From Adhaeribacter arboris (lineage in GTDB: Bacteria > Bacteroidota > Bacteroidia > Cytophagales > Hymenobacteraceae), in NCBI RefSeq assembly GCF_003023845.1, contig NZ_PYFT01000001.1, forward strand, positions 1,612,001 through 1,676,000: 64,000 nt of DNA, read 5' to 3'. This document shows positions 25,187 to 43,493 of the stretch, one piece after another; within the stretch, counting starts at the first letter, position 1; each line of letters starts with the position of its first letter. The position numbers and the translations under genes were made by a program. The notes beneath the pieces are model-generated. The model was not told the origin of the DNA. It searched no databases and worked only from the letters and a program-made list of their open reading frames with translations.

Positions 25187-25233
25187 AATTATAATATGTA
25201 ATTATTCCTGTTTAGTATTAACAGATTTCCTTC

Positions 25234-25467
25234 ATGAAAAGTGAACAGGAAAACTTAAAAGCAATAGGAGAAAGAATAAAGCAGCTTAGAATAAGAAAAG
25301 GTTATAGTAGTCACGAGTCGTTTGCAATAGACCACGACTTAGGTAGAATGCACTATTGGAAAATGGAGAGTGGCAAACATAACCCAACAATAAAATCACT
25401 TCTTCAAATACTTGAAATTCATAATATCACTCTAAAAGAATTCTTCTCAGAAGGCTTTGAGTACTAA
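25234..25467 (+). CDS. XRE-family helix-turn-helix regulator
   Basis: A 77-aa protein consisting only of a lambda-repressor-like domain: IGERIKQLRIRKGYSSHESFA, then the recognition region GRMHYWKMESGKHNPTIKSLLQILEI. It has no dimerisation or peptidase domain. As the only clear regulator in the island it may control its own promoter and perhaps umuDC, which carries the same 12-mer upstream. Confidence 0.82.
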   Translation: MKSEQENLKAIGERIKQLRIRKGYSSHESFAIDHDLGRMHYWKMESGKHNPTIKSLLQILEIHNITLKEFFSEGFEY

Positions 25468-25553
25468 TTTTTTGTATTAATAGTTAGTTTATTTGATTCC
25501 CATATCTTTACAATTATGTATTAGTTAAATGGTTAACTATGTGAAAATGCTTT

Positions 25554-26204
25554 ATGGAACAACTAGTTGGAGCAGCAATAGTCACTTTAATTGCTATAAT
25601 ATCAATTGCCCTGATTATTTATGACATGAACCATGTTATGAAAGTAAAGGCATTAATAAAGAATCCAACTTTTGATGGTGCTAAAGATGCATTAGAGCGT
25701 TTATCTGATTGGGCAAAGTGGTTATCAGGTATTCAGACAGCTGCTCTAGGAGGTCTTGGCTTATTAATAAACGATAGACCAGGAATAGAGAAAGAACCAT
25801 TTGTACTAATAACCGCACTTCTACTAGGGGTAGCATTATTGTGTAGTGCTTGGGTACTTTCCTCCTTACCTTCAATCTCTTTAAGAATCTATGCTACATA
25901 TGGATGGCAAAAGAGGAAACAGTCTCGTATAACTGGAACCTCAAAAAAGTATGAAATCTATGAATTACCTCTATATCATGCATTTAAAGGCGTTCCTCTC
26001 TCCTTTGTTGTTACGCTTCAACACTGGTATTGGGGGCTTGGTTTACTAAGTTTTACTTGGGTATTGATTCAACTACCTAACTATAAGCCTGAACCAAAAA
26101 AAGAAGCTTCTTTAATCCACTTACAAATAACTAAAGAATCTAACAAAGCGTTATATAGCATAACTCCCATAAAGAGTAGCTTTCATATACCTGCTGATAC
26201 ATAA
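25554..26204 (+). CDS. Membrane protein, hypothetical
   Basis: A 216-aa protein with four likely membrane segments: residues 5-24, about 58-75 (weaker), 85-108 and 150-172. No domain is recognised. The stop overlaps the likely start of the downstream nuclease lipoprotein gene by one or a few bases, so the two probably form one translational unit. Confidence 0.6.
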   Translation: MEQLVGAAIVTLIAIISIALIIYDMNHVMKVKALIKNPTFDGAKDALERLSDWAKWLSGIQTAALGGLGLLINDRPGIEKEPFVLITALLLGVALLCSAWVLSSLPSISLRIYATYGWQKRKQSRITGTSKKYEIYELPLYHAFKGVPLSFVVTLQHWYWGLGLLSFTWVLIQLPNYKPEPKKEASLIHLQITKESNKALYSITPIKSSFHIPADT

Positions 26205-27050
26205 TTAAACAAATTACTTTACTTTTCTTAGCATGTTGTTTACTAGCTAGCTGTAAAGAAACTGAAGTTGCCCCACAAAGAACTATAGCTAACATAACCA
26301 ATGAGAATCTTACTTTAGGTAATCCCAGTAATGCCACTACAGATTTAAGTAATTACAACAATTACTTGATTGAGAAGCCTCAGTATGTTCTCTCTTATAG
26401 CAGGGATAATAGTATCCCTAATTGGGTAAGCTGGCATGTAAGTAAAAACTGGTTAGACTCTGCTCCTCGTCAGGATGATTTTAGAACTGATGAAAGCCTA
26501 CCTGCTAGTTGGTATAGGGTAAGTCCATCCAGTTTTACAGGCAGTGGTTTTGACAGAGGCCATAATTGCCCTTCGGCCGATAGAACCAGAAGCATAGAAG
26601 ATAACTCTGCTACCTTCCTAATGAATAACATCATTCCTCAAGATTCCTCAAGCTCCTGATAATAATAGGAACACCTGGGCCAACTTGGAAGATTACACAC
26701 GCAGCTTAGTGGATGAAGGTAATGAGGTATTTGTTATTATGGGCAATTATGGCTCTGGTGGAACTGGTTCTAATGATTACGCTCAGACCATAGATAAAGG
26801 TAGAATTAAAGTACCTAAACAGATTTGGAAGGTATTATTCATACTTCCTGAAGGAGACGATGATATTAATCGTATAACAAGTTCTACCAGAGTAATTGCA
26901 GTAGATACTCCTAATATAAATAAAGTTAACTCTAACAGGAGCTTATATCTAACTACAGTGGATGCTATTGAAAAAGCTACTGGATACGATTTATTATCTG
27001 AAGTACCTATGCAAATACAAGAGGTATTGGAGGCTAATGTAGGTAATTGA
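26204..27050 (+). pseudogene. DNA/RNA non-specific endonuclease (NUC1 type) lipoprotein, frameshifted
   Basis: The frame has a lipoprotein signal (KQITLLFLACCLLASC), then the NUC1 active-site motif FDRGHNCPSADRT and NSATFLMNNIIPQ. It then breaks at a 10-bp tandem duplication (ATTCCTCAAG at 26633-26642 and 26643-26652). Deleting one copy joins IIPQ to APDNNRNTWANLEDY, the normal family continuation, and gives 278 codons. The second half starts at 26685 in the other frame. No ATG precedes the signal; the best start is ATT 26204 or ATA 26201 at the upstream stop. As sequenced it cannot make a full nuclease. Confidence 0.85.
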
Positions 27051-27083
27051 CCTACCCAATAGCATTTCATAATAATTATTCGC

Positions 27084-27145
27084 TAGTCCCTAAGATAAAT
27101 AAAGAATTATTTAAGTTAAAAAATTGAAAAATTTATTAGGGACTA
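27084..27145. terminator. Inverted repeat between convergent genes
   Basis: TAGTCCCTAA (27084-27093) pairs perfectly with TTAGGGACTA (27136-27145) around a 42-nt AT-rich loop. It lies between the nuclease (+) and the ATPase (-), so it may end both transcripts. The rest of the 386-nt gap shows nothing clear. Confidence 0.4.
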
Positions 27146-27436
27146 TAAGGGTGTAGTGTATAGTAATAATTATAAAAGCTCATGTTTTTTGAATTGTATT
27201 ACCATAGGTTTTCACCCTTATTTTAGTCCTTTATGTTACATTAATTAGGAAGATCGCGTTTCTAAATGCTAAGCTGAATCAATTAACGCCTTGTTATAAT
27301 CAGCTATTTTGCTTTCAATGTACAAAATCATGAGTTGGTCTATACTCATAAACAACTTTATATATTTTTAATTTATAGTTTGTCACTATACCAAGGTATA
27401 TGGCATTTCTATTAAATATTAAATAGCACAACAAAC

Positions 27437-28978
27437 TTAATTTCGTCTATTTCGCTGACAATAATTACGCAAGGTAAAGTGCTGAGTGATTTTCAGTTCT
27501 TTATTGAACTTAAAAATTTCATCGTCTTTCTCCCAATGTTTAAAGTACGTTTTACCTGTATCATTTGTATTACCTATTATGGATAAGTCAAAAAGAAGCT
27601 CTAATAAGTTATATGTATCTTCAGAAAAATGAAATTTCTTGAGTTCATGAATAAAGAAAATAAAAGAAACAGGTTCATTTGCACAACTTACAAATGCACT
27701 AAATATAGCATTAATATCATCAGGTGCGTAATGGGCAGCAAGTTCGTTTTTAAGCTCCTTAACAAATTCAATAGTATATTTGCCAATTAATATATAAACA
27801 TCTTGTTTCGATAAAGGGATAGAAAACTTTAGTTCTTGCAATGGTTTAAAAAACAAGATTAAATCCCTAGGCCTTATTAAAGTATGTTCGACAATATATT
27901 TAAAACTAGATTTCTTGTAGGATTCATCTTCATGTATTAGGGATTCCCAAGGCTTACTTATATCAAAACTAAATTCATTTTTTTCAAAGTTCAAAGCAAT
28001 TCTTCTATTTATAAATTGTTTTAACTTGACTTTATCCTCATCCCTTTGCATTTGAAAATGCTCATACCATTTTAAAGTAACTTCATAACTTGAAAATAGT
28101 TTAGCTGTGTCAGCATCTTGATTAAGAAGAAATCGAGATATATCATCTCTAAGAAGTAGTATAATTTTAGCGCTAATATCTTCTTTTCCAAAAAAAGTAA
28201 TATTATAATCCTTTACAATTCTAAGGATGTTAAGAATTGTTTTAACATTTCCTGGGTTTTTCGCATTAAATCCAATATCTAAATCATCAAATAGTAAAAT
28301 GTAATGATTATCTTTATTTATGGTGTTAAGAAACAGTTCTTTTATTGTCTCTTTTAAATGTGGTAAAAGCTTAAAGAATGGAGCCTTTTCCCCTTTTATA
28401 TTAAATCTATTACCAAACTTAGCTGTTAAAAAACGTTGGAAATAATTAACATTAACTTCCCATCCCTTATCTTGAATTACTTCTTTGATTTGATTTGATT
28501 TAATATCAATAAAACCAGAATTCTTTTTTAAGAATACTTTTAACTCTTTTATCCCTTTTTGGTCTGCTATAGCTTCGTTGGAAATTAATTGTTTTACAAA
28601 CTTTACAAGTATAATCCATTCAATAAGAAGTTCCTGGCTAATTTCATTATCTGTTCCACTTACTAGCTGAGTAATTTTTTCAATATCGATATCGGCTTTT
28701 TTAACAAAGTCACAGAAATATTCTGGCTCATTTAATGCCAAATAATAAATATGTTCTGCAATAGCTGATTTACCATTACCCTTTCTTCCTGTTATAATAA
28801 ATTTCTCACTCTGTAATTGAGGAATAACTTCAAAAAAGTCTTCAAACACCTCTGTAAGTTTAACTCTTGAATTAGAAGTGCTTTCAGCTTCAGCTTCAGG
28901 AGAACCAAGAAAGAAATTAGATGTATCCCTCTTCAATCTATTAATTTGGTCTTTAGTAAACTTTTCGAATAATCTCAT
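27437..28978 (-). CDS. P-loop ATPase, uncharacterised
   Basis: A 513-aa cytoplasmic protein. Walker A is at about residues 61-70 (TGRKGNGKSAIAEH) and a Walker B-like strand is near 228 (YILLFDDLDIGF). The Arg-containing LLRDDISRFLL and the C-terminal helical region resemble the ORC/STAND-type ATPases used in many defence systems, but no effector domain is seen. It is flanked on both sides by more than 300 nt of gene-free DNA, so it is a stand-alone unit. A defence function is a guess from context. Confidence 0.65.
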   Translation of the reverse strand: MRLFEKFTKDQINRLKRDTSNFFLGSPEAEAESTSNSRVKLTEVFEDFFEVIPQLQSEKFIITGRKGNGKSAIAEHIYYLALNEPEYFCDFVKKADIDIEKITQLVSGTDNEISQELLIEWIILVKFVKQLISNEAIADQKGIKELKVFLKKNSGFIDIKSNQIKEVIQDKGWEVNVNYFQRFLTAKFGNRFNIKGEKAPFFKLLPHLKETIKELFLNTINKDNHYILLFDDLDIGFNAKNPGNVKTILNILRIVKDYNITFFGKEDISAKIILLLRDDISRFLLNQDADTAKLFSSYEVTLKWYEHFQMQRDEDKVKLKQFINRRIALNFEKNEFSFDISKPWESLIHEDESYKKSSFKYIVEHTLIRPRDLILFFKPLQELKFSIPLSKQDVYILIGKYTIEFVKELKNELAAHYAPDDINAIFSAFVSCANEPVSFIFFIHELKKFHFSEDTYNLLELLFDLSIIGNTNDTGKTYFKHWEKDDEIFKFNKELKITQHFTLRNYCQRNRRN

Positions 28979-29290
28979 TTTAGCTTTGGTAAGTTTATCT
29001 GGTATATAACGTTCAGGTCAGAAGCTATGTTTGTAACGTTTTATTAATTAGAAAATGATTTTGGATGAATCTTTTATTAACTCAATTATTCTTTCATGTA
29101 GTTCCAATTTGGAATGATCTGCGCAACATTAGCTGAAGCCACAAAAAGCTAAATCCAAGTATGTATATTCTTATAAGTTAAATCTTAAGACCTTTAATAA
29201 AGTAGAATTATCTAATATATAGATATTAATTTTAACTTAACAATAAATTAACATTAATATCAATAATAATAAAACGGTATAAAAGACTCT
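28979..29290. other. Intergenic stretch without recognised features
   Basis: 312 nt of AT-rich DNA between the P-loop ATPase and umuC, both on the minus strand. It should contain the ATPase promoter; no box or hairpin stands out. Confidence 0.4.
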
Positions 29291-30562
29291 TTAAACATAA
29301 GCAATAATAATATCATTTAAGCTAGTAGTATAACAAGGCGATTTTCGTTCACATCTCAAATGCCAAGACTTATTGTATCCTTGGGTAGCTACCTTTACAA
29401 TATCCCTACTAAACCTACCAGAAAGACTATCTACAACTTCCATCAACTTATGATGCTTAACTCTGTCTACAGTATCTAGTAGGTCAAACTGTATTTGGTT
29501 CTCTGGTAAAATCTCTGTTAATATCACCCCAGATTTCTTATACTGGTAACCTGGCTTGTATATAGATTTAAGAGCTATATCTGCATACTTGATTAATTCC
29601 ATGTCTGAGTTAGTCGCCACTGGCAAGACAATGGTTCTACTGTTATTATATTGCTTATCCTTCTCGCAGAACCTGTTGGTTTCTACAAATACAGTTAAGA
29701 ACCTGGCACAGCTTTTTTGCTTTCTCAGCTTCCTGCCACACTTAGCTGCGTAAGTAGCAGTAGCTTCCTGAATGTACTTAAACTCTGTTTGCTTAACACC
29801 ATATCCTCTGGAGGTACATATGCCCTTCTTAGGAGGCATTACTTCTTCCAGTTCTAAGCAGGATTCACCCCTTAGTTCTTTCAAAAGACGCAATCCAACA
29901 ATGGACATATGTTTTTGCACCCAGCTATCATTGGCTTGAGTAAATTCATACGCTGTATGAATCTGGTGCTTTTTAAGGAACTTGGCATACTGTCCACCAA
30001 TGCCCCAAATATCCTCTATTTTAGTTACTTCTAGGGCTTTCCTGATGTGTTCAGGTTCTTGTAATACGAGTACTCCATTTGCTTTCTTAGACTTCTTAGC
30101 CAGCTTATTTGCTACCTTTGCTAAAGCCTTGGTAGGTGCAACACCTAAGCTAACTGGTATACCTGTCCAACGTAATACAGTATTCTTTATCTCCCAGGCA
30201 TAGGCATTTAAATCCTTATTATAGAAGTTACTTAGGTCCAAGAAGCACTCATCAATGGAATACAGCTCAATACTTGGTGTAAACTGAGAAAGAGTTTGCA
30301 TAACTCTATTCGACATATCTCCATACAAGGTATAATTGGAGGAAAAGGCATGTACTTTCTTAGCTTCCACTAAGTCTCTAATGGCAAAGAAAGGTTCCCC
30401 CATATCAATCCCTAAGAGCTTAGCTTCATTACTCCTGGCTATCACACAGCCATCATTATTACTGAGTACAACAATAGGTTGACCATTTAAGCTTGGATTA
30501 AATACCCTTTCACAGGAAGCGTAGAAGTTATTACAGTCACAGAGTGCGAGTAATGTAGTCAT
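29291..30562 (-). CDS. umuC: Y-family DNA polymerase (UmuC, Pol V catalytic subunit)
   Basis: A 423-aa protein of full UmuC length. The catalytic acids are in [17 protein letters not shown] and SIDECFLDL, with the steric-gate region following; [24 protein letters not shown] and the helix-hairpin-helix [15 protein letters not shown] are present. It performs error-prone synthesis past DNA lesions with processed UmuD. It overlaps umuD by 4 nt (ATGA type), so the two are translationally coupled. Confidence 0.93.
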
Positions 30563-31023
30563 AACTTTACTGGTTTATGTAGTACCCAAGCTACTACCCC
30601 CCACACTCGCATATCCATATCATCAGTAATTTCGATAGGTTTATAAGCAGGGTTGGCAGGTTCTAAGTAAAGCTTGTTATTTATCTTTCTAAAAGTCTTC
30701 ACTGTAAACTCTCCATCTAAGAAACAAACTACAGGTACCCCATCATTGGGCTTTAAGGACTTATCAATAACCAGTATGTCTCCTTCGTGAATGTTAGCAT
30801 CTTGCATAGAATTCCCTTTTACTCGCATCATGTAGGTAGAAGTAGGATTCTGAATGAGGTAGCTGTTCAGGTTAATCCTATCTTCCAGGTAATCATCTGC
30901 TGGCGAGGGAAAACCAGCTGAGATATAACAGGAGAAGAATGGGATTTCAATCTCTTGAAAAGAAGAAATAAAACAAGGCTCGAAGACGTCAGGATGCAGA
31001 GGAATGATTTTAGCTTCATGCAT
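30559..31023 (-). CDS. umuD: UmuD-like S24 auto-protease
   Basis: A 154-aa protein with the Ala-Gly cleavage site in [13 protein letters not shown], the nucleophile Ser in [12 protein letters not shown] and the general-base Lys in FTVKTFRKI, all in the UmuD order. RecA filaments normally trigger self-cleavage, which activates Pol V. It has no DNA-binding domain, so it is UmuD and not LexA. A 20-bp dyad lies 13-32 nt upstream of the start. Confidence 0.92.
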
Positions 31024-31035
31024 ATTAAACTAAGC

Positions 31036-31059
31036 TAGTATGTCTATATATACTAAATA
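31036..31059. promoter_or_regulatory. Candidate operator of umuDC
   Basis: TAGTATGTCTATATATACTA (31036-31055) has perfect 6-bp arms TAGTAT/ATACTA. It overlaps ATATACTAAATA (31048-31059), the 12-mer shared with the XRE upstream region. The position just before umuD fits a repressor site, by LexA or the island's XRE protein. Confidence 0.42.
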
Positions 31060-31345
31060 TGTTAGCAATTACGTATAAAACCCGTATAAAAACTAAAGAT
31101 TAAAGAAATTTTTTCTATATAGAGATTATAAAACCTAATTATATTAGTATAAATAGCTTAGTTTCAAGGAAAAGTGAACCATTTAAAGTGGTACGTGTAT
31201 CTTATTGCTCGTCTTTGAGCTTTATATGATTCCTACTATAGATGATGGTTAGGCATAAAAGGAGAATAATAGACCTTTTAAAGTACAGTATTAAAAACTT
31301 TATAATGGAGGTTGAGTAAAGAAGGCAAAATAGTTAACTTACCAC

Positions 31346-31576
31346 ATGAAACTATACCAGGAACTAACTCCTAGAGGTAAGTTCTTTCGAAAGAACATTG
31401 CCAGACTAATTAAATATGGTAGCTTGTTACTTGGCTACTACTTTGCTTGTACTAGAATAATGGGGGTAACTAAACCATCGTCTCCTCCCTCAATTAAAGA
31501 TAAGCACCTACCTATAGCATATCTAATATCTATGACTAATATTATCACTTGGAATTTAGAACAAAGCCGTCAATAG
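31346..31576 (+). CDS. Possible small protein, 76 aa
   Basis: A basic N-terminus (GKFFRKNIARLIKYG) is followed by a short hydrophobic stretch (SLLLGYYFACTRI) that could cross the membrane once. No family is recognised. It overlaps the SRAP remnant on the other strand by 32 nt and stands alone in an otherwise empty gap, so a chance ORF is about as likely as a gene. Confidence 0.28.
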   Translation: MKLYQELTPRGKFFRKNIARLIKYGSLLLGYYFACTRIMGVTKPSSPPSIKDKHLPIAYLISMTNIITWNLEQSRQ

Positions 31577-31751
31577 CTTTGATAGGAATAGCTTTCATGT
31601 CAGCAGCATTATAAGTTTGTAGTAAACCTAATAAATCCTCTTTAGGTATATTACCTTCCAGCCATAGTCTTTCATTATCTTTAGAAAGGATAACAGGCAT
31701 TCTATAGGTAGTTACAACAGGAGATCTTGTAAAAAATGTTACTAAATTATT
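31545..31751 (-). pseudogene. Remnant of an SRAP/YedK (HMCES) family gene
   Basis: A 69-codon frame contains YRMPVILSKDNERLWLEG and LLGLLQTYNAADMKAIPI. These match the C-terminal part of SRAP proteins, which have N/DRMPVIL, then WL, then the LLxPYxAxxMKAYPVS pattern. The N-terminal half with catalytic Cys2, and the C-terminal end, are missing. SRAP proteins cross-link to abasic sites in single-stranded DNA and often sit with umuDC in SOS cassettes, which fits the neighbours. It ends abruptly near the McrC-like gene. Confidence 0.7.
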
Positions 31752-31790
31752 TTAAGGAAAAATAATCAAAAGAGACTGAAAATATATTGT

Positions 31791-33606
31791 TTAAAAACGA
31801 TTTTGAAAAATATTAATAATATCAGTTATATAAGATTTAGCTTTTTTGCTTACTCCAACTTCAACAGTTCCAATTGATGGGTAAATTGGGTTTAGGCTGA
31901 ATAAATCAAACTCTTCTTGATGGTATGACCAAACAGGTTTTGTATTATCTTTACCAACTTTATCTTTAGGATGTAAAAGAAAAAGGCCTTTAAAATTTAT
32001 TGAATTTATATCTGAACTGATACCATGCAAATATTTAAGGGTTAATTCAGCCAAATCGAATCGCTTAATATTACTAAAAGGTTTATATTTAGCATCAAGG
32101 ATAACCAAATTAATATCTTTTACACCTGGTTTCCTTATCTCTAAAATAAAATCAGGAAGTAGTTGCCCTTTATAAAGAGAAGAAGATGTAAATAAATATT
32201 TAGGAACATATTCATAGTTTAATGTGATACTGCAACCATCCAATTTCTTAAAACTATATCTACCAGCATGAGCAGTAACTCTATCATCCCATTTATTATT
32301 TATTTTAAAGTTAGAGGGAGCAAATTCATTGTATTCATATCCAAGGTCTACAATAGCATTAATAATTTTATATAAGCAGAACAGTTCATACAACTTATCT
32401 AAAGTCCTTACACCAGAAAACAAGAAATGATTGTCAAACTTAAAATTTTTCCTATCAAACCAACTTATGATTTGAACACCTATTTGATAATAGTGATCTT
32501 TTGATTCAAAACCATAAAAAATAGAAGGCCATTCAATTTTAGGACTACTTACAGGAATTATTTTATTACATTTATAAATAAGTTCATCTACTAAATCAGT
32601 TAAATTATACACAATAGTTTTAAGTCTTAAAAAGTACTTATTAATCTGTATCTCCCTAAGTGTTAACCCAAAATCGTTATCTGATACAATATTATTAGTT
32701 ATGTTTGCAAGTATATTAATAAGGTATTCCTTAACATCTTGTAAATATCCATGAATGATTTGATTTTCATAAATGTCAGTTGATGTAATCAAATCTGAAG
32801 ATTGAATCTGGCTAATTCCATAAAATCTATTATTAATTTTAATCCTAGAAGAATTATATGGGTCAGTCCTTGCTATTACATGAAAATTATGCAAAAGCCA
32901 ATTTATAGAGCTTTCATCTACATTTAAACTATCATTCCAAGTTTTAATTTGGAAGTCCTCAACAACTTTCACTCTAGGGTCCATCACTAACTGAGGCAAC
33001 AGGTCCAAAACTTTGGTTAAATTGGTTTGTAATTGGTATAAAAACCAAAAGATATGTCCCTCTTCAGAAATTTTATCTGAGGACTTTACTTTAGATCTTG
33101 ATATTGCTTGCCAATAAGAAACCTTATTACTCAATAAAAAATCAAAAAATATTACCAATATCCAAATCATTTATTTTACTAGAAGAAATCTCTATTGATC
33201 CCACTGGCTTAGGCAGAATATCTAATTCACCAGAATCAAATAAAATCTCACAAGTACCAAAGTAATTTAAAAAAATCTTCCCAAATCTTCTTGAGCCACC
33301 AATTAAATCTTTTATATAAAACTGTTTATAAAAGTTATCATTCCCAGAAAATAATGATTTAAAATCACATTCATAGTATATTCTACCATATATGTCTCTT
33401 TCCAAAAATCTTAATGGAAACCAATCTTCAGTGAGCCAAATACCAGCATCATTATTTAAATAATAATCAGATATTAGATATAGATAAATGTAATCATTTT
33501 CTGAAACATTAATTTCTAAATTATCCTTTATCTCAATTGAATTATGACTTAACTTATCATCATTATAATTGATACTCCTACTTGAAATATAAAGTTTTAT
33601 ATCCAC
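31791..33606 (-). pseudogene. McrC-like nuclease (DUF2357 plus PD-(D/E)XK), frameshifted
   Basis: Two frames meet here: 33142-33606 (154 codons, GTG start) and the frame ending at 31791 (open from 33170). They join seamlessly if one T of the T6 run at 33144-33149 is skipped, giving ...DLDIGNIF-DFLLSNKVSYW... and a protein of about 604 aa. The C-terminal part has LLPDFILE and LVILDAKYK, the D...DxK nuclease motif. The middle resembles DUF2357, which accompanies McrB-like motors. The slip site reads TTT TGA, so a mutation, a sequencing error or a prfB-like +1 programmed shift are all possible. The start overlaps the stop of the McrB-like gene (TAGTG). Confidence 0.75.
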
Positions 33607-35273
33607 TAGTTAAAAAACTTAAAATTATTATAGTTACTAATCCCAGAGCTAATTATTTGATTTAAAGTAAAACTAGTTTTAGGCAGGCTCCTTTCAATGG
33701 TTTTAGATAAAGCTTCAAGCCTTTTTTTGAACTTTTCTCCCCTACCATTAATTAATGGTAATATATGCTGCAAAACAGCATAATCTAAAGCAGTAAATTG
33801 TAATGATTCTTCTTTAAAGATTAACCTACCAGTAGAACAATAATTAATTACAGAATTTTGTTTTCGAGGACTAATAATTATTGGGTTACCAAAATTTAAG
33901 GTATCATCATTTTCTAAATTATTTTTAATTTCTAAGAAAAGAAGTCTTTCATCTTCTTTAAAAATACCATTTGGATTATAAAACAAAGCATTTAGCTGCT
34001 CTGTAGACAAATAATCTTGAACTTTAGGCAGATTATTAATTTCCAAATTGTCAATTAAATCTTTTTTAGGATTAAGCAAAATTATGGGTGCTCTATCTAT
34101 TAGCCTTGGAGATAGAACTTCAGTTGTATGGTCATAATTAATAGTAGCAATAAATCTTAGACCCTTACCAATATGAATATTGCCTTCTTTTCCACCTATA
34201 GAAATTATTTTTTCTGATTCTGGATCAGTTAATCTCATAAAATCTGACCAGTAATGTTCAATTGGACTTAAATTAGCTTCATCAAGTAAAACATAATAGG
34301 GAATATCTAATTCCTGCTTTATTTCAAATTGGTATCTTTCAATAACTTCATGGTAAAAATTAGTCTTAGAGGCTTGAAACTGGTTGGACAAAGGATTGAA
34401 ATAGCCTATTAAATCTTTAGTTGATGTCCATCCTTTAGAAACAGAAATCGGCAAAAATCTATTCTTAAAACCTAATGCTTCAACTAACTTTGTAACTAAT
34501 GAAGTTTTACCAACCCCTGGTAGGCCAGCAAAGACTGATAAAAAGCTTTGATGAATATTAATAATATAATTGGCTAATTCATTGAATTCAATTTCTCTTC
34601 CAATTATATTAAGATTATGTCTCACCTCATTTATATAATCCTCTAATCTATTAGGAGCTTGTTCTTTAATATTAGGTTTAGATAATCCTAATGGCTTATC
34701 AGACTCTCCATTTAAATCTGTAGGAACAATACCATTTAAAAAATCAACATAAGGTTTTAATCCCAATAGATGATTTCTTACGTCATCAGAGTTCCTAAAC
34801 TTATCTCTAAACTTAACCAAATCACTTTCATACTCTTGTTTTTTCTTTTTTAAACTATTAATTTTTTGCTCAAGATTATCTATTAGGCCTTCTCTTTCCA
34901 TCTTTTGGCCTTCAATATACCCAACCTCCTCTGCTAATTTGTATTTTTTTAATAACTCCTTTATAGGTCCATATTTTTCTTCTGATTCTATTAAATCATT
35001 AATTAATTGTTGTGATTCTAATGAAACATTAGTTAAACTTGAACCCTGAGGACTAGTTAAAGATTCAACCTTCTTATTTTGAATTTCTACTTCAAGCTCT
35101 TTTAACTCATTTTCTTTTACCTTTATAATAGTATCATACTTTTCAATGATACTATTTCTATTTTTTTCAAGGAAGTCATTTAAATGTATTTGCCCCTCAT
35201 CAGTTGATAAAAACTCATGAATAAACTTAGGTAGACCTGATACTAACCATGACTCAGTACCCTTTAAAATTTT

Positions 35274-36060
35274 AGTTGTGGACTACAAAGTATGATGTTT
35301 GGCTTTATGTCTATTGCGATAGTCAAACATCAGGTTTAGACTTGCTAAATGGTTTTCCTTCTTTTTGGAGAAGCAGGTTGTTTTTCTGACGAACCGTCTG
35401 TTTCTGGCTCTGATGCAAGTATTCACGCCTTCTATGTTTTTAGTGTAAGCTTTTCCTATCGTGTGCTTTGTCGGGGGGATTACCTGAGCAAACGCTTTCC
35501 AATGATCAGTACAATATTGTTCTATTTCCACTCCTTTTAGCTTTTTGAGTAGCTGGCGTACTGTTTTAGCGCTTCGGCCGCCACAACTATAAGCCAGTAC
35601 TTCATCTGTTTGGGGACAGTAAGCATACAACAACCAGTATTTTCCTTTCTTGCGCTTTCCGACAAAGCTCCAGACTTCATCGATCTGTACGGATCTATAA
35701 TGCTTTTGGGTTGGTTGAATCTTAAGGGCATTCCCCTGTCGGCACAAGTTGCTTAGCACACACTTTCTACTCACTTCCAGCAACTTTTCAATGTCACGAA
35801 CACCATTATTTCTTTCCAGAAGACGCCGTATCAACCGCTTGGTAGTCGGATCCGCTCCTCTATAGCGATATATTGGCTGAAATTGCTTCTGGCAATTACG
35901 ACATAGAAGGTTCTGAGAACCATTCTTTTTCTTGCCATTTTTTACTACCTTGCTGCTCTGGCAGTGGGGACAGTTTATTTTGATCTGAACTTCGAACATT
36001 CCATCATCTTAAACACTTCACTGCCTCTTTTTATCCCATCATACTTTCTTTACCACTACC
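35274..36060 (-). mobile_element. IS1-family insertion sequence
   Basis: 787 bp bounded by 24-bp imperfect inverted repeats (35274-35297 and 36037-36060), 18 of 24 matching, with inner ends AAAGTATGATG identical. An 8-bp target duplication AAAATTTT flanks it (35266-35273 and 36061-36068). Size, repeat length and duplication length all fit IS1. It lies inside the McrB-like gene. The clean duplication and intact transposase suggest recent insertion. Its GC content is higher than the surrounding island. Confidence 0.92.
35283..35999 (-). CDS. IS1-family transposase, single ORF
   Basis: A 238-aa protein with an N-terminal zinc finger (CPHCQSS...CRNCQKQF), a helix-turn-helix (NNGVRDIEKLLEVSRKCV) and a DDE core: QIDEVWSFVG, CTDHWKAF and NIEGVNTCIRARNRRF. 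Classical IS1 makes this protein by a -1 frameshift between insA and insB; here one uninterrupted frame encodes it, as in the single-ORF IS1 subgroup. It fills almost the whole element and is apparently intact. Confidence 0.92.
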   Translation of the reverse strand: MFEVQIKINCPHCQSSKVVKNGKKKNGSQNLLCRNCQKQFQPIYRYRGADPTTKRLIRRLLERNNGVRDIEKLLEVSRKCVLSNLCRQGNALKIQPTQKHYRSVQIDEVWSFVGKRKKGKYWLLYAYCPQTDEVLAYSCGGRSAKTVRQLLKKLKGVEIEQYCTDHWKAFAQVIPPTKHTIGKAYTKNIEGVNTCIRARNRRFVRKTTCFSKKKENHLASLNLMFDYRNRHKAKHHTL

Positions 36061-36887
36061 AAAATTTTTTTAAGTTTATCCAACTTTAAATCATCCCCAG
36101 GGTTAACTACAGGAATTTGGTTTAAATGTTTAAAAAGGTCTTTAACATTTTTTTCTTCAATATTGGCTAGATTTCCAATATTTTTTCTACCCCACTCTAA
36201 AATATCTTCATTACTTCCATAATAAATAACTTCTTTATGAATGGATGTATTTGCAAGTAATACTAAAGCATTAAACACAAAATTATTCCCATTATCTGAT
36301 ATCAAATACTTTGATATTTGATTTATATTAAATTTAAATATACATTTATCATATTCATTGCTTAAATTTAACTCTGAATGTGTAACTGGTCTCAATTGAA
36401 CATTATAATATTCATCATCAGCTTCATCTTCTTCCTTTTGGAGTAAGAATGGGCCATAAACATAATCAGAATTGTTTGACTTTATAAATACATATGTAAT
36501 TGGGAGAAAATTTACTACTAATTTAAAAGATTTATCAGGGTCAAAGTTCTTTTCAAATATAGGACAAAGTTGATATTTTTTTGGATCTTCCGCTTTATCT
36601 CCTATTACACTGTATTTAGCGCTTGAAGGTATTTCTGGTAAAAACTTGGGACTATCTTCATATCCATTAATAAAAAACAATTCTTTATTTGTGTAAACTT
36701 CATCAATTTTATCAAATTTACTGTAAACAAATAGTTGTCCTCTATTTGGGAATTCATTGATTGTTACTTCCTTAAATGCTTCATCACTGTTAGAAATACC
36801 TAAAACTTTTATTATACCTGTATATGAACTTGAGGAATCACCATGTGACTCCTTCCTTACAATTAACCTATCTGATAAATTCTGCAT

Positions 36888-37208
36888 TTATTTTTTTTAT
36901 TTAATTATTAAATATAATAGTTAGTGAATTGTTTTCTAGAATAATTCAAAAAATACACTATATATTTAATAAGGTTTGTATTTGTTACCCATTTTTTAAA
37001 TATTTTATTACAATAACTTTAAAATTTAAGTAAGGGCTTTCACCCTTACCTAATTTACCTAATTGCAATTAGTAAACTTGGCTACGTTCTTTCAGTGGTT
37101 TTTTATTGAAGGAGAAACCGTCTCAAAGAACTATGGCCTAAGAAATACAGCATAACTCCTACTATTCGCCAGTTGTCTTTCGAAAAGAAAGAAAAGATAA
37201 TAAGTAGT
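36888..37208. other. Intergenic region upstream of the McrB-like gene
   Basis: 321 nt holding the likely McrB promoter. GTAAGGG (37030-37036) pairs with CCCTTAC (37043-37049) over a 6-nt loop. GCCTAAG (37136-37142) and CTTAGGC (37213-37219) form a longer-range inverted pair. Confidence 0.4.
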
Positions 37209-37490
37209 CTACCTTAGGCGAGTAATGATATAGTGAAGGGGAGGGTAATGACGAAAGCAGTAGTAAGGATAATAACTGCCAAATACTTTGAAAAGAATAA
37301 TCCTAGAGTCCCAACCAATTACCTGGCTGACTTCAACTTTATCTCCAGCTATAAAGTCTTTTGAATTTACTATGCAAGTAACTTGAAAGGGACAGGATGC
37401 CCTATATAACCTGTATGGTGAAAGAAATAAACAACTATCCTCATCTACAGTACTATCGTAATCCTCTTCCTCATTCGATACATATATCAT
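37209..37490 (-). CDS. Hypothetical protein, 93 aa
   Basis: An acidic start (SNEEEDYDSTVDEDS) is followed by an aromatic-rich beta-type body with FIAGDKVEVSQVIGWDS, which resembles a small barrel. No family is recognised. It lies 66 nt from the next minus-strand small gene, so a transcript of two short genes typical of mobile elements is possible. Confidence 0.5.
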   Translation of the reverse strand: MIYVSNEEEDYDSTVDEDSCLFLSPYRLYRASCPFQVTCIVNSKDFIAGDKVEVSQVIGWDSRIILFKVFGSYYPYYCFRHYPPLHYIITRLR

Positions 37491-37556
37491 ATAGCTTGTT
37501 CGTTGTTGATGAGTTACATAATAAAAAGAGTAGCTTGAGCTACTCCTTTAACTAAT

Positions 37557-37907
37557 CTAAGCAGCAGCTCTGAGTACTGGCTTAGTAAATACTTCCTGCT
37601 CCATTGTTCTAGGATTGGGATTATAGTAGTATGTATGGCGCAAGGTAATTATTTCGCCTGTCGATGGAAGAGCGTATTCATAGGGGTCGCAATCCATTTT
37701 CTCAATACTACCTGGCATTGTTTTTCCTTTGAGTCCTTCACAGATAACATCATTAAAAGTACAGGAGATGGTACAAGTCTTCGCTGTCGCATAGAACCTA
37801 CCTGTCTCTTTAGATTGTACCATTTCAATATCACTTTGCAATACTAAAACGTTAAATGTTTTGCCATCCTGGGCAGTTCTTTTCTTGAAGTCGATAATAG
37901 ATACCAT
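37557..37907 (-). CDS. Hypothetical protein, 116 aa
   Basis: Contains KRTAQDGKTFNVLVLQSDIEMVQSKETGRFYATAKT and a central Cys pair. Its composition and length resemble small accessory proteins common in Bacteroidota plasmids and islands, but no function can be assigned. The start ATG 37907 begins MVSIIDFKKRT, and a long gene-free region lies upstream. Confidence 0.6.
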   Translation of the reverse strand: MVSIIDFKKRTAQDGKTFNVLVLQSDIEMVQSKETGRFYATAKTCTISCTFNDVICEGLKGKTMPGSIEKMDCDPYEYALPSTGEIITLRHTYYYNPNPRTMEQEVFTKPVLRAAA

Positions 37908-38501
37908 TGTGTTAGAGAATTAAAAGAGTTATAAATAGCGAAGGACCCTGTGCCCAACGCAGAAGTAAGCTAGGGGGCAGTCTACTATGTTATCTCACGA
38001 AAGGACGGGCTTAAAAAAATATAAAATATAAAAATTATATTATATAGACAGTAGCAGTAAATAGAGTTATGACAATAAAGATGTTGAAACCTTCTACCAA
38101 TTGTGTTTTTAATAATATTATAAACAATGAAGGTATATTACTACATAACTTATCTTTGGCATAGACTACTAAGTGTATGGTAGGAAAGTGGATAAGTAGG
38201 GGTTTGTAATTCTTGTCAAAGATAAAATGACGATATACCTTATACTTCTTTTGGAAGGACCACGAAGCGAGTAATCTAATGTACTCGTATAGACTCTATA
38301 GTTTACATTAAAGCTATATTATGTAATGTGTAGACTTTTATAAAGGGTAATATTATGCTAAAATCCCATCGTATGCATAGGCTTGCGAAAGCACAGACCC
38401 TAAAAAACTATTAAACCAAGTTTAATAGACCAGAGTATTACATGATATTTATATTACTTTTATTCTCCTATATAAGAGTGGAGTGTCACAAATATTAAAA
38501 C
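37908..38501. other. Long gene-free stretch in the island
   Basis: 594 nt, very AT-rich, between divergent small genes. It holds one perfect hairpin at 38408-38428 (CTATTAAAC, loop CAA, GTTTAATAG). There is no T run beside it, so it may be an operator or single-strand structure. No supported gene is seen; its size and composition would suit an origin, but no iterons are visible. Confidence 0.4.
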
Positions 38502-38945
38502 ATGGAAATTCAATATTCCTCTTTAGCTAAACCAACAGGGTTGGATAGGTTTTATTATTTGCTGAATGGTGAAGAACAAATAGGTTATGTGGAAGGACAT
38601 TTGAATAACTATGGTGAGTTAGTTCCAGTTGTCCAAATTTATTCTGGATACCAAAGATTAGGTTTAGGATTTGAAGCTTTTAAAAAGGTATTTGATGAGC
38701 TTAATGAACTATCCCCAATTACTAAGATACTTGGTAGCTGGCACAAAGGAAGAGAGTTTGCCCATTGTAAAGATGGTATGTCAAGTAACCTGCGAATATT
38801 CTTAAATTGTAGAAGTCAGCACAACAGTGATTCAGAATGCGCATTGCAAACACCTACAGGTAAATGGGCTGCTAAGTTAGGGTTTAACAAATGTAAGGTT
38901 CTGAGTATTTCATCAGATGAAGTAAATGTGGAATTTTTTAAATGA
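38502..38945 (+). CDS. GNAT-like protein, tentative
   Basis: A 147-aa protein. GYVEGHL...PVVQIYSGYQRLGLGFEAFKKVFDEL resembles the beta4 strand and acetyl-CoA loop (Q/RxxGxG/A) of GNAT acetyltransferases. TGKWAAKLGFNKC resembles the C-terminal A-x-x-x-x-GF motif. The match is by eye and incomplete, and no substrate can be named. Convergent with the VapE-like gene. Confidence 0.5.
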   Translation: MEIQYSSLAKPTGLDRFYYLLNGEEQIGYVEGHLNNYGELVPVVQIYSGYQRLGLGFEAFKKVFDELNELSPITKILGSWHKGREFAHCKDGMSSNLRIFLNCRSQHNSDSECALQTPTGKWAAKLGFNKCKVLSISSDEVNVEFFK

Positions 38946-38992
38946 AAAGCTTTAATTTGAATAAAATCTTTAATGCAATTTCTAGGGTAGAT

Positions 38993-39075
38993 AGGCAGGT
39001 TAGGTAACCTATTTTTCAAACTTATTATATAAGTGCAAATACTTTTAAAAACTAAGCTACCTTACCTACCTGCCT
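38993..39075. terminator. Inverted repeat between convergent genes
   Basis: AGGCAGGT-T-AGGTAA (38993-39007) pairs with TTACCTACCTGCCT (39062-39075), with one bulge and a 54-nt loop. The position, after the GNAT-like gene (+) and before the end of the VapE-like gene (-), fits a shared transcription end. Confidence 0.45.
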
Positions 39076-39085
39076 TTTCTAGAAA

Positions 39086-40255
39086 CTATTCCATCTTCTC
39101 AATACTATCAACTACGGGTATTTCCTTTAGATAATAGACCTTTACCCCTTCTCCTTTCTTACCAGTCTCGAACTTATGCCTTTGCAAGGCTTTCGCTAAT
39201 CTGGTCTTATTCGCCTGGTTTACTTCAATACTTTCCTTCTGACTTAGATAGGTAAGTATATCTGTATTGGACTTATAAAGATTACTCGCTTTTGTTGCAG
39301 GTTCGAAATACTTAAGTAATAGCTCTTCCTCAATCGTAGTAACCTGAAATTCTTCGTTGTTCTTATTAATAACATCAGCATCACTAGAATCAAACCAGAA
39401 CTGAAAACCACTTTTCCACAAGGAATAAGCTTGGGCGTATACCAAGTCCAGATTAATCTTGTGAAGGTGATCAATCTTTAAGGTTTCGAAGGTTAAGAAC
39501 CTTCTACTTCCAGTAGGGTCATTAAGAAACTCACGATTATTGACTGTTCCTGCAAAAGAAGCTCTCCTGATTAGGTTTTCACTATGAGTATTGTAAGGTC
39601 TTCTTATCTTTATATGGAGTTTCGTCATTAACTCCTTTAGGGAACCCAAACTAGTTCTGTTTAAAGTTTCTAGTTCATCCATGAAGATAAAAAGGCACTC
39701 AGCTAAATAGACTTCAGAATCCTTATTCTTTGGATTTATTGTACCTGAAAAAGCGTATTCCTTTAATGGCTTTGGTACCAGCTTATTCATCCAGGTAGTC
39801 TTACCAACAGCTTGTTTACCTGTGAATACAATAGCTGTTTGGTTAACTGCCTCATTATCTAAGGCGCAAGCGATAACCCCTACGATCCATTTTTTTAAAC
39901 AGTACTTCCAGAACTTATCGTTATGGGTTTTTACAGTACTAGCTAAAGTCTCGATATGGTCTTCTTGCTGGTCCCATGTGGGCAATCCTTCAAAGTAGGA
40001 GGTAAACGGGTCATATTGCTGACTAAAATCTGAGTGAAGAAGCCTTCTTAAACTATCAGCAGAACAATCATTATCATCATTCTTAATTTCCCTTATTATA
40101 CTGTTAAAAGCTGTTTCATCTAATACCTGAAAGGCTTTTGCTGGCTTTTTAGCATAATAGATTCTATCATTAACTTTATTAACTTTAAAGGTGTACCATT
40201 TTTTTAGGTAGTACTCTATCCCTTGATGGTACGTTAAACTTCTTCTACTTGTCAT
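39086..40255 (-). CDS. VapE-domain protein (SF3-type helicase/primase family)
   Basis: A 389-aa protein. Walker A is IVFTGKQAVGKTTWMNKL, Walker B CLFIFMDELETLNR, followed by KELMTKLHIKIRRPYNTHSENLIRRASFAGTVNN and DPTGSRRFLTFE, the VapE signature with sensor and Arg-finger residues. VapE proteins occur in prophages and phage satellites and act in replication of the excised element. It overlaps the upstream HTH-like gene by 11 nt. No separate primase domain is present. Confidence 0.85.
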   Translation of the reverse strand: MTSRRSLTYHQGIEYYLKKWYTFKVNKVNDRIYYAKKPAKAFQVLDETAFNSIIREIKNDDNDCSADSLRRLLHSDFSQQYDPFTSYFEGLPTWDQQEDHIETLASTVKTHNDKFWKYCLKKWIVGVIACALDNEAVNQTAIVFTGKQAVGKTTWMNKLVPKPLKEYAFSGTINPKNKDSEVYLAECLFIFMDELETLNRTSLGSLKELMTKLHIKIRRPYNTHSENLIRRASFAGTVNNREFLNDPTGSRRFLTFETLKIDHLHKINLDLVYAQAYSLWKSGFQFWFDSSDADVINKNNEEFQVTTIEEELLLKYFEPATKASNLYKSNTDILTYLSQKESIEVNQANKTRLAKALQRHKFETGKKGEGVKVYYLKEIPVVDSIEKME

Positions 40256-40667
40256 CGCTTCTCACTGGTTTAAAGGGCTCAGGAACCAACTCTACTCCAT
40301 AAATTAGATTGTTATTTATCAGAAGGCTAAATATTTCTTTGAATCCAGTTGAAGTAATATAAACATCGCCTTCGTTGAGTTTACCCTTATGAGGCTTCAT
40401 TTCCTCATTTAGAAACCAACTATCTTCTAAACTTTCCTGACACTGAGAATAACCTAAGTTTATTACTCCTAGTCGCATCATATAATTTAAAAATTGCTCC
40501 TCAGTCATATAAAAGAGCACAGCTGCTTCCCTTATGCTAAGGATATTAATTTCACCTTTTCCAAGACAACGCTCTCTAACTTGTTGTCTCAAAATTGATT
40601 CTTCTCTTGAAGTTTTCATTTTGTCAATCATATATGTGTTTAAAAATGCCAAACCTATGGCATTCAT
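40245..40667 (-). CDS. Probable DNA-binding accessory protein, 140 aa
   Basis: It contains LSIREAAVLFYMTEEQFLNYMMRLGVIN, which reads as a helix-turn-helix of the excisionase or MerR-like sort. The rest is unknown. It is translationally coupled to the VapE gene (11-nt overlap), so it probably acts in replication or excision of the island. Internal ATGs at 40631 and 40619 are alternative starts. Confidence 0.6.
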   Translation of the reverse strand: MNAIGLAFLNTYMIDKMKTSREESILRQQVRERCLGKGEINILSIREAAVLFYMTEEQFLNYMMRLGVINLGYSQCQESLEDSWFLNEEMKPHKGKLNEGDVYITSTGFKEIFSLLINNNLIYGVELVPEPFKPVRSDDK

Positions 40668-40960
40668 TTATCTCGAGAGGGTAACCAACTTATATGCATT
40701 GATAATGCACTGGCAAGCGTAGCTCATCCCCTCTAAACAGACAAGTATACTAGACTACTATTAATCGATTTGGTTGGTACCTTAAGTAGTGCTTAGCGAC
40801 TTGCATGTCACAAACATACGAGTTAAATAGGGCTACAATATGTAACTAAAATCAAGTGTAGAGAAAGGTGTAGAGTGTAGAGCTATTGGACTACTAGCTC
40901 CACAAGTATAATTTGGCAGATAAGAAAGAAAATTAATTGTTATGATTGGGAGGAAAAAAA
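40668..40960. other. Intergenic region upstream of the VapE unit
   Basis: 293 nt with a small TGCATT-GA-AATGCA-type hairpin near 40693-40709. It should contain the promoter of the 40245/39086 gene pair. No other structure is clear. Confidence 0.35.
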
Positions 40961-41905
40961 TTAAGGTGTAGAGGAGCAAAGGTGCTGAACTATCCTTAAT
41001 ATGTTCTCCTGATTTGCGGGGTATTTCGCAAGACGTAATTCGTTGTTAGTAAACGTCTCTCCGTTAGATTTCTTAAACCAAGATCTAGTTATTTCCCAAT
41101 GACCTTGGTCTGGAATTTCTTCGATTAAATGTTGATTTTGCAACTGGTGAATCAGTAAACGCAATTGGCCATTACTGCCTTTCCAGATAACAGGAGTAGG
41201 TTTAAGGAGGGCATTATTTCCAAAAATTGTAGTTAAAGCAAGTTTAACCAAATTCTTATTTGTTTTATTCACCCTTACTGAGAATTCTGATACTAATCCA
41301 GTATTTATCAATTCAGTTGAAAATACATTCAACTTTTTCTCAGCTTCCGATATTGCACTAAATCTTTCTCTAAAAAATTTAGGATTAATATCATGAGCCT
41401 GCTTAAGAGCTGTATAAGTAAAAGTGGTAGGTAAATCTGTTTTAGAAATATGAGAGGATTTTATATCAAGTGAAATGTTTTGAGAAGGTGTCTTTAAAAG
41501 TCGATTATATACAATTTTAATCTCTTGTTCTAAATATAAAAGTGATTCTGCAATAGAAGGGTATTTTTGATATATGTCATTTTGGGATACATCATTTATT
41601 AATGTATTTATTTGCTCTAGAATATCGAATAAGTATTCTTTTTTTTCTATCCTAGTAGAGTATTCCTTAAGTTCCCAACTAATTAGGTGAAGTGCTTTTT
41701 TCTGTTCTTTTTCTACTAATAATTTTAGAGAAATCAATATAGTAAAAGGCTGGCCATACTCATCATAATGTATGTAGGATGCTGTTCCATTTTCTATATT
41801 AAACTCATAATAAGGATCCTCAAGTTTATCAGTTAGATGTAATGCTTCCCACTCTTGTAATCCCCCTATTCTTATTAAATCTATAAAGTACTCTAATGCA
41901 ACCAT
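40961..41905 (-). CDS. Hypothetical protein, 314 aa
   Basis: A helical N-terminal two-thirds with no recognised motif is followed by a C-terminal segment (KPTPVIWKGSNGQLRLLIHQLQNQHLIEEI then HWEITRSWF) that looks like a winged-helix fold. Its place directly before the integrase gene, on the same strand, suggests a regulatory role in the element, like the accessory genes beside integrases in Bacteroidota elements. No firm family. Confidence 0.6.
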   Translation of the reverse strand: MVALEYFIDLIRIGGLQEWEALHLTDKLEDPYYEFNIENGTASYIHYDEYGQPFTILISLKLLVEKEQKKALHLISWELKEYSTRIEKKEYLFDILEQINTLINDVSQNDIYQKYPSIAESLLYLEQEIKIVYNRLLKTPSQNISLDIKSSHISKTDLPTTFTYTALKQAHDINPKFFRERFSAISEAEKKLNVFSTELINTGLVSEFSVRVNKTNKNLVKLALTTIFGNNALLKPTPVIWKGSNGQLRLLIHQLQNQHLIEEIPDQGHWEITRSWFKKSNGETFTNNELRLAKYPANQENILRIVQHLCSSTP

Positions 41906-41974
41906 GGATATTCTATTATTAGCTTATGGTCTATCAATTGAAAACTACCTTATACAATTAAACGAATTTAGGTT

Positions 41975-43195
41975 CTATTTAGCAAGCTTCTTTCTTAAAG
42001 CTTGGGTAGAAGCTGCTATAAGGGTATTAGTTACTTTGGCGTAGATTTGGGTTGTATTTATATTATCATGACCTAAAATTTGCTTTAGGACTTCCATAGG
42101 AACACCATTCTGAAGGGCTATAGTAGTAGCAAATGTATGTCTTCCAATATGGACAGTTAGTTTCTTCCTAATACCACATATATCAGCTATTTCTTTAAGG
42201 TAAGCATTAAACTTTTGATTAGAAGGGATTGGAAGTAGAAAACCTGAAGTTATTACTCTTTCATGCTCCTTATACTTTTCCAGAATGGCCTTTGCAGGTG
42301 AAAGAAGAGGTATAGTACATGGATTACCTGTCTTCTTACGCTCAGTATATATCCACTCCTCCCCATCAATACCAATACTTAGGTTTGACATCCTAAGGTG
42401 CTTTGCATCAATAAAAGCTAAACCAGTATAACAGGTAAATAGGAACATATCTTTTATAATCTCCAACCTCTGAAAATTAAACCTGGTATTTTTTAATAGC
42501 TCTAATTCTCCTTCATTCAATGGGAGTCTTACAACCTTATCCTTAGACATAGAATGTAAGAGAAAAGGGTCTTTTTCCAAGTAATTATACTTCAATGCTA
42601 TTTTAATCGCCTTTTTAAGGCGTTGGACATGTTTAATAGCTCCATTTTGCCTACACTTCCCTTTTGTCTTCAGGTATAACTCAAAGTCAGCTATAAACTT
42701 ATAAGAGAGTTCTTTTAACTTAAAGTCTTTTACCTTGTACTCCAAATAAATAAAATTTCTAATATGGTTCTCAGAAGCTTTATAAGCATTATAACAGCTA
42801 AAGCTAAACTCCACTCCTATTTTAGCTTTAACATCTTTTACTAACTTAGTGAAAACATCCAACAGGGTAAGCTGCTTTTCTTCTATCCCCAAAATACCAT
42901 TCTTTATAGCATCCAGGTCAATATCTTTTCCTTCTTCTATTAGTTTATTATAATGTTGCTTGGCTCTAAGTTTAAATAGCTCGATGGTATCGTTTATTGT
43001 CTTAGAATAAATAGATTTCCCTTTAACTTTCCCTTGATTGGAATCCCACAGCTCAGGCTTAATGTAATGTTTAGTGGCTATTTCACTTATTTTACCATCA
43101 ATGGTAAGTCTCATAATAACAGGTACTTCTCTTAGCTTATTGGTCTTAGTTCTTCTGACCATTGCTAAGATGGAAAATGTGCGTGTAGTTTTCAT
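41975..43195 (-). CDS. int: Tyrosine recombinase/integrase of the island
   Basis: A 406-aa protein with an N-terminal arm-binding domain, a SAM-like core-binding domain (about 105-210) and a catalytic domain. Catalytic residues visible are HIGRHTFAT (HxxR), LGHDNINTTQIYAKV (His and Tyr) and KKTGNP; the first catalytic Arg position reads TGLAFIDAKHL, as in many CTnDOT-like Bacteroidota integrases. It integrates the element at the tRNA-Leu 3' end. It sits 216 nt from the tRNA, with probable arm sites between. Confidence 0.93.
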   Translation of the reverse strand: MKTTRTFSILAMVRRTKTNKLREVPVIMRLTIDGKISEIATKHYIKPELWDSNQGKVKGKSIYSKTINDTIELFKLRAKQHYNKLIEEGKDIDLDAIKNGILGIEEKQLTLLDVFTKLVKDVKAKIGVEFSFSCYNAYKASENHIRNFIYLEYKVKDFKLKELSYKFIADFELYLKTKGKCRQNGAIKHVQRLKKAIKIALKYNYLEKDPFLLHSMSKDKVVRLPLNEGELELLKNTRFNFQRLEIIKDMFLFTCYTGLAFIDAKHLRMSNLSIGIDGEEWIYTERKKTGNPCTIPLLSPAKAILEKYKEHERVITSGFLLPIPSNQKFNAYLKEIADICGIRKKLTVHIGRHTFATTIALQNGVPMEVLKQILGHDNINTTQIYAKVTNTLIAASTQALRKKLAK

Positions 43196-43277
43196 GGTTC
43201 TTGCTTATTATACAGACCATTTGAACACTACTTACTCAATCATAAATTGAACTATATCAGCAACTTACAAAACATTC

Positions 43278-43327
43278 AGTGACCTAAAACATTCTAATAC
43301 TTAAGGTCACTAAATGGGTCACTAAAT
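43278..43327. promoter_or_regulatory. Candidate integrase arm-type sites
   Basis: GGTCACTAAAT occurs twice in direct orientation, at 43305-43315 and 43317-43327. AGTGACCT at 43278-43285 is the same core inverted. A GTCACT core also appears near the left end at 24078-24083. The position between int and the attachment core is where arm sites are expected. Confidence 0.4.
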
Positions 43328-43410
43328 TCTAAGTGTTTTAGATAAGTTGATAGGCTATAAAGTAAAAAACCCTGCAACTAGAAGAAGTTACAAGGTTTTA
43401 TTTTTATTTG

Positions 43411-43493
43411 TGCGCGCGGGGAGATTCGAACTCCCACACCCGTAAGGCACCACCCCCTCAAGATGGCGTGTCTACCAGTTTCACCACGTGCGC
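43411..43493 (-). tRNA. tRNA-Leu (anticodon GAG)
   Basis: The 83-nt cloverleaf starts GCGCACG and ends CGCGCGC plus the A discriminator, with one A-C mismatch in the acceptor stem. The anticodon stem CCATC/GGTGG carries loop TTGAGGG, hence anticodon GAG. The D-loop has CTGGTAGA and the T-arm GGGAGTTCGAATCTCCC. CCA is not encoded. Its 3' 27 nt form part of the island's right attachment site, so the gene stays whole after integration. Confidence 0.93.

Follow-up and report, generated by a model that had tools for sequence, protein, structure and literature searches.

The McrBC-like systems closest to the locus described here pair an AAA+ motor with a nuclease partner. Sections of Bell et al. 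2024 (PMC11090510) describe an NxD branch with coiled-coil fusions, in which Types I-A and I-C consist of McrB and McrC homologues only, and name the Pfam domains PDDEXK_7 and DUF2357 as parts of McrC. We analysed a 64,000-nucleotide stretch of Adhaeribacter arboris DNA (RefSeq assembly GCF_003023845.1, contig NZ_PYFT01000001.1, positions 1,612,001 to 1,676,000), hereafter called the window, whose own coordinates are used throughout. The window very probably carries a dead or dying NxD McrBC-like two-gene defence module on a tRNA-Leu island, with its motor gene cut by a recently active IS1-family insertion sequence (IS) and its partner gene frame-broken at a run of six T. It represents a broken member of an McrBC-like kind that is already known, within an NxD family that is under-described. 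An earlier reading of the letters alone (the original prediction) had described an IS-split McrB-like motor gene followed by a nuclease gene; the broken partner gene, the 19.4-kb island that carries the module as cargo, and the 11 near-identical IS copies of this genome go beyond it.

The 5' part of the motor gene, encoding the N-terminal domain, was located at 36061-36887 on the minus strand from the open reading frame (ORF) list, the joined frame, and matches of the N-terminal half; its mechanical ORF continues to 36039, inside the IS. The 3' part, encoding a predicted coiled-coil linker and the AAA+ domain, was located at 33606-35265 on the same strand from the joined frame, domain matches (AAA_5 and PDC-M26A), and motifs, and its largest ATG ORF covers 33606-34901 (431 aa). 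Joining the flanks of the IS gave an open frame of 828 codons starting at ATG 36887, exactly as the original prediction had stated for excision of the element. The 364-nt stretch between the junction and ATG 34901 holds no stop in the motor frame, whereas the two alternative frames contain 20 and 15. A scan with the joined protein, using one genome per species, returned four loci (L012-L015). Uninterrupted motor ORFs were found in Larkinella terrae (803 aa), a Mucilaginibacter metagenome-assembled genome (MAG; 793 aa), and a Peptococcaceae MAG (855 aa), and the single-ORF relatives span query residues 45-827 (L012), 35-827 (L013), and 45-828 (L014). At 11 of the 14 relative loci that were fetched (L012-L015, L041, L042, and L101-L108), two of the 11 being near-duplicates, a motor of 793-855 aa lies in one ORF. 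The N-terminal half alone matched L012 (6e-27), L013, and L107, three of the nine relatives compared (phmmer, database size 1); in the other six it aligns in a multiple alignment only, where conservation reaches at least 90% at G-P-F and a small number of further columns. Because uninterrupted relatives cover both halves, the two apparent genes that flank the IS are a single IS-split McrB-like gene, and the IS-free orthologues that the original prediction had proposed to look for were found; the outcome that it had named as refuting, a lack of fused homologues with the halves occurring independently, did not come about. The mechanical ORF list and the many genomes matched by the AAA+ part alone would fit two separate genes that happen to lie on either side of the IS, but this notion is already refuted by the L012, L013, and L014 relatives spanning both halves in one ORF, is opposed by the exact 8-bp duplication described below, and is given practically no credence here.

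The IS1-family element occupies 35274-36060 on the minus strand (787 bp) and lies between two copies of the 8-bp target duplication AAAATTTT, identified by direct comparison at 35266-35273 and 36061-36068. The predicted coordinates of element and duplication hold; the predicted 24-bp terminal inverted repeats are also present but imperfect, with agreement at 18 of 24 positions. A single 238-aa ORF at 35283-35999 on the minus strand, found in the ORF list and by its domain matches, encodes the IS1-type transposase; it reads in the frame of the motor gene and matched NCBIfam transpos_IS1 (NF033558) with E 1.1e-58, exceeding the cut-off, and Pfam DDE_Tnp_IS1 at 4e-26. The element belongs to the IS1 family: an IS1 transposase with zinc ribbon, terminal repeats, and a short duplication are all present. 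In contrast to classical IS1, which is characterised by 9-bp duplications and frameshifts, it has a single-ORF transposase and 8-bp duplications. Four in-frame stops within the element terminate the motor frame.

Thirteen matches to the element were found in its own genome, comprising 11 full copies and two partial, diverged ones. Ten of the full copies are identical across 787 bp and one is 786 bp long, and the 8-bp duplication is exact at 10 of the 11 and agrees at 7 of 8 bases at the eleventh. Since there are 11 full, near-identical copies with 8-bp duplications, the insertion is more than a chance pattern, and as an event it is ordinary. The sequence AAAATTTT was the target of 3 of the 11 insertions and occurs merely 65 times in 336 kb; the copies lie mostly in A+T-rich targets. 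Within the genus, five of eight genomes (own included) held matches, and those in the other four were relatives of 71-75% (G003 and G004) or pieces shorter than 80 bases (G001 and G006). The near-identity of the own copies, together with these diverged or short congener matches, points to a recent spread of the element in this lineage.

The McrC-like partner gene also appears to be broken. Its front part (154 aa) lies at 33142-33606 on the minus strand, with a GTG start that overlaps the motor stop, and its remainder (459 aa) lies in a different frame at 31791-33170 on the same strand and carries a PD...DAK nuclease motif. The two ORFs jointly match one protein of about 600 aa, and the gene after the motor is one ORF of 602, 599, and 581 aa in L012, L013, and L014, respectively. 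In the window, a TGA directly after the six-T run ends the 154-aa ORF, whereas the partner is a single ORF, unbroken at that position, in all 10 relatives placed in the partner alignment A9. The 459-aa piece matched PDDEXK_7 at 7.2e-7 with the PD and DxK residues kept, and no DUF2357 match was obtained for the window's own partner pieces; among the 12 rows of A9, PDDEXK_7 was found in 8 and DUF2357 in 4. By this comparison the small ORF at 33142-33606 is the front end of a frame-broken partner gene. Of the predicted McrBC-like module with its following nuclease, the PD-(D/E)xK partner therefore stands, but the nuclease gene is not intact and is spread over two frames.

If the partner were in fact unbroken, the IS alone would disable the module, and the frame change would reflect either an error of sequencing or assembly or programmed +1 frameshifting at UUU-UGA. 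The site, a T run and then TGA, is of a type where the tRNA in the ribosomal P site could re-pair one base on, as is known from release factor 2. However, the T run is short, and none of the 10 relatives in A9 shows a break here, so that recoding would not be conserved. An error is opposed by a control in which congener G003 was compared with 336 kb of the own assembly and none of the 37 ORFs that could be compared, together 17,084 aa, showed a frame change, a small sample given that 201 reference ORFs of G003 were offered and most could not be paired. We consider an unbroken partner unlikely. The same lesion bears on whether the IS could be a reversible switch, its precise exit in some cells turning the module on. 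Because the element plus one AAAATTTT copy measures 795 bp, which is divisible by 3, exact loss would keep the frame; the IS is also recent. Yet any target, irrespective of what it encodes, is restored by exact loss of element and duplication, and precise excision of IS1-type elements is rare. Because the partner gene is frame-broken too, loss of the IS alone would not restore a normal module, and a switch is highly improbable.

The motor carries the motifs of an AAA+ enzyme, namely Walker A (GLPGVGKT), Walker B (LLDEANLS), and the sensor NYD. Walker A, Walker B, and NxD were present in all six motors tested, and NxD was kept in 10 of 10 rows holding that region in A10, an eleven-row profile whose rows were selected for intact motors. 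Loci L015 (its match being limited to residues 504-827), L102 (the same plasmid stretch as L041), L105 (a close copy of L104), and L106 (488 + 357 aa) were left out of both A9 and A10, and the motor of L103 (169 + 672 aa) was left out of A10 while its partner was kept in A9. Pfam AAA_5 matched the window motor at 2.2e-4 with 21.7 bits, just below the cut-off of 22. The PADLOC candidate PDC-M26A (PDLC04547) matched all six motors, at 6.3e-29 for the window and at 1.1e-29 to 6.7e-21 for L012, L013, L014, L041, and L042. In the PDB, the five-relative profile A6 matched E. coli McrB (6hz4) with E 0.0024. The N-terminal domain had no credible family match in PDB or Pfam (SPACA9 at 0.0092 in one of six members), in agreement with the novel-looking domain of the original prediction. 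The coiled coils that it had proposed are borne out by the predicted helical linker before the AAA+ domain, which scored against coiled-coil proteins when profiles A6 and A10 were compared with the PDB. An AlphaFold model of the L012 motor from a five-row alignment (A4) shows long helices at 301-405, but its mean predicted local distance difference test (pLDDT) of 44.8 is too poor.

It is decidedly doubtful that the module is split but still working, with the two pieces, 431 aa of motor and 459 aa of nuclease, produced separately and still acting, perhaps from an IS promoter. Both pieces are open and have start codons, and the 431-aa ORF retains the AAA+ core motifs. A split of this kind is seen in none of the relatives in A9 or A10, although the A10 rows were selected for intact motors, and the split motor of L103 looks like another broken copy. 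The module in the window, as read from its sequence, is most likely inactive. An intact motor would assemble into an AAA+ ring, with its N-terminal domain and coiled coil detecting or holding foreign nucleic acid. The partner, built from an N-terminal part of unknown fold, a DUF2357-type region, and a PD-(D/E)xK nuclease, would stimulate hydrolysis of nucleoside triphosphates and cut. In this genome, the motor ends at the stops in the IS1-family element and the partner loses its frame at the six-T run.

Several points weigh against a decayed McrBC-like module. Of the 14 fetched loci, three fall short: the motor is broken in L103 and has a length of just 488 aa in L106, and the match of L015 is partial. 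In many genomes, the AAA+ part occurs without a detectable N-terminal domain. In the PDB comparison, A6 placed its weak McrB match below a Lon protease and a membrane protein with coiled coils, and with A10 McrB was missing from 35 PDB hits at E 0.01; the Lon matches grew stronger with A10 than with A6. Since the McrB match is weak or lost, the McrB assignment rests on the motifs, the PADLOC relative, and the partner. The profiles of the McrC-type partner matched no solved structure in the PDB. Frame breaks in assembled genomes can be sequencing errors, and while the control result makes an error unlikely here, our own arithmetic from it gives an upper bound near 10% for a partner-sized gene. 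The IS, its duplication, the one-ORF state in relatives, the second frame break in the assembly, and the island with its empty congener sites are direct observations; the defence function, the ring assembly, the target, and the loss of activity are what we infer from them.

Compared with known systems, the module resembles PADLOC PDC-M26A in its motor: this model scores best across the linker and the leading part of the AAA+ domain. It differs in that the best stretch of this 724-position model starts at position 138 or later and the window's N-terminal domain is not in the model. No PADLOC model matched the window partner pieces or the partners of the five relatives scanned, and no paper using the term PDC-M26 was found in the literature searched. 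With E. coli K-12 McrBC, the module shares the AAA+ motor and the McrC-type nuclease partner. In contrast to that system, the N-terminal domain has no match to DUF3578, the methylcytosine binder, the motif is NxD and not NxxD, and the partner is longer at the N-terminus when measured against the size of McrC.

The likeness to the NxD-branch McrBC and CoCoNuT systems, as set out in sections of PMC11090510, lies in NxD in place of NxxD, a predicted helical linker before the GTPase, and tandem McrB and McrC homologues with a DUF2357 + PD-(D/E)xK partner. In contrast to CoCoNuT as described in those sections, no HEPN or other nuclease gene was recognised beside the window module. A word search of the main text of that paper returned neither Bacteroidota nor Bacteroidetes. 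Judged by motif spacing and by alignment to E. coli McrB, no insert showed between Walker B and NxD like that described for CoCoNuT Type I-A, the two motifs being 37-45 residues apart in all six motors, and over the aligned stretch the motor model (172 positions) showed no extra length relative to E. coli McrB (182 residues). Because no such insert shows, Type I-A is unlikely. A profile comparison with the N-terminal cold-shock (OB) domain of CoCoNuT Type I, for which 8 of 12 fetched loci yielded a sequence under the search pattern, gave an hhalign score of 12.9; of 40 column shuffles, 3 scored higher. CoCoNuTs bear an immunoglobulin-like N-terminal domain on the McrC homologue; in the L012 partner, strands were predicted within residues 6-75, in an AlphaFold model (from alignment A5) whose mean pLDDT of 48.4 is too poor. 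The predicted CoCoNuT-like character is plausible from NxD, the helical linker, and the two-gene McrB/McrC layout, though probably not as Type I-A.

Relatives of the module were sought in plasmids, viral contigs, phages, and genomes. By tblastn, 288 plasmid records matched the L012 motor, none spanning 80% of the query. The L012 partner matched two plasmid records, one of them annotated DUF2357. Full two-gene pairs on plasmids were found in Acinetobacter (853 + 569 aa) and Klebsiella (839 + 603 aa), and the N-terminal domain of these motors aligns in a multiple alignment only. Viral contigs gave no match with profile A1 and at least eight loci with A6. Among the viral-contig matches listed, six loci (L101, L102, L104, L105, L107, and L108) carry the complete motor and partner pair; the motor is broken in L103 and short in L106. 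Phage records gave one weak partial match. Across 395 genomes of the phylum, A1 matched 71 and profile A2 matched 3, own included in each, and no A1 match outside the own genome reached the N-terminal domain, none beginning before model position 249. In 59 genomes of close relatives, the joined protein had two matches, namely itself and a partial AAA+ match in which the N-terminal domain was not reached, and E. coli genomes had no match to the Klebsiella motor DNA. By these finds on plasmids, viral contigs, and the island, the motor/partner family appears sparse and mobile.

Some matches were themselves interrupted. On plasmids, match H27 (Klebsiella quasipneumoniae) crosses an IS5-type transposase and matches H35-H41 cross two adjacent hypothetical genes, which suggests that this motor has been broken more than once. 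In L103 (999-7385), the motor is split into ORFs of 169 and 672 aa beside a 641-aa partner ORF; the adjoining gene is UmuC-like by eye, and the window island also has a UmuC gene near the module.

The island measures 19.4 kb (24030-43437) and lies between perfect 37-bp direct repeats of the tRNA-Leu 3' end, one attL-like (23993-24029) and one attR-like (43401-43437, in and beside the tRNA gene). The integration site is tRNA-Leu(gag) at 43410-43493 on the minus strand, and the tyrosine integrase (41975-43195) and a VapE-like primase/helicase (39086-40255) are encoded on the same strand. With these genes, a UmuDC-like pair, and an Sll1717-type ATPase, the island is satellite-like in build. The G+C content of 1-kb bins is 26-39% inside the island and 37-43% in the eight outside bins examined. 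The site was compared in seven genomes of the same genus: the two island flanks are contiguous in G003 and G006, leaving an empty site, and in G002, G005, and G007 they fall on a single contig within about 2.3 kb of each other, with G001 and G004 being uninformative. Relatives of the integrase (E 1e-60) and of the VapE-like protein (1e-40) were found in 11 and 9 of 60 family genomes, respectively, own counted.

The 513-aa P-loop ATPase at 27437-28978 belongs to the Sll1717 family (E 2.3e-77); it has a weak nSTAND3 match below the cut-off, a match to a phage family of unknown function, and no PADLOC match, and is possibly a second defence gene on the island. An S24 peptidase gene at 30559-31023 near the module brought up a CoCoPALM reading, which was not adopted, given that CoCoPALM pairs with UmuC.

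These results correct the annotation of this region: four apparent genes, namely the N-terminal half, the C-terminal half, and the 154-aa and 459-aa ORFs, are two, both broken. A predicted defence module is seen decaying on a mobile island. It is possible, though we propose it only tentatively, that the module belongs to a coherent and as yet unclassified family of two-gene NxD McrBC-like systems. Such a family would share a conserved N-terminal recognition domain that is marked by FV... and GPF motifs and matches no Pfam family, would be spread among phyla by prophages, plasmids, and tRNA islands, and would sense a target other than methylcytosine, possibly RNA. The intact relatives in Larkinella, Mucilaginibacter, and others provide the means to test this uncharacterised NxD McrBC-like family and its candidate sensor domain.

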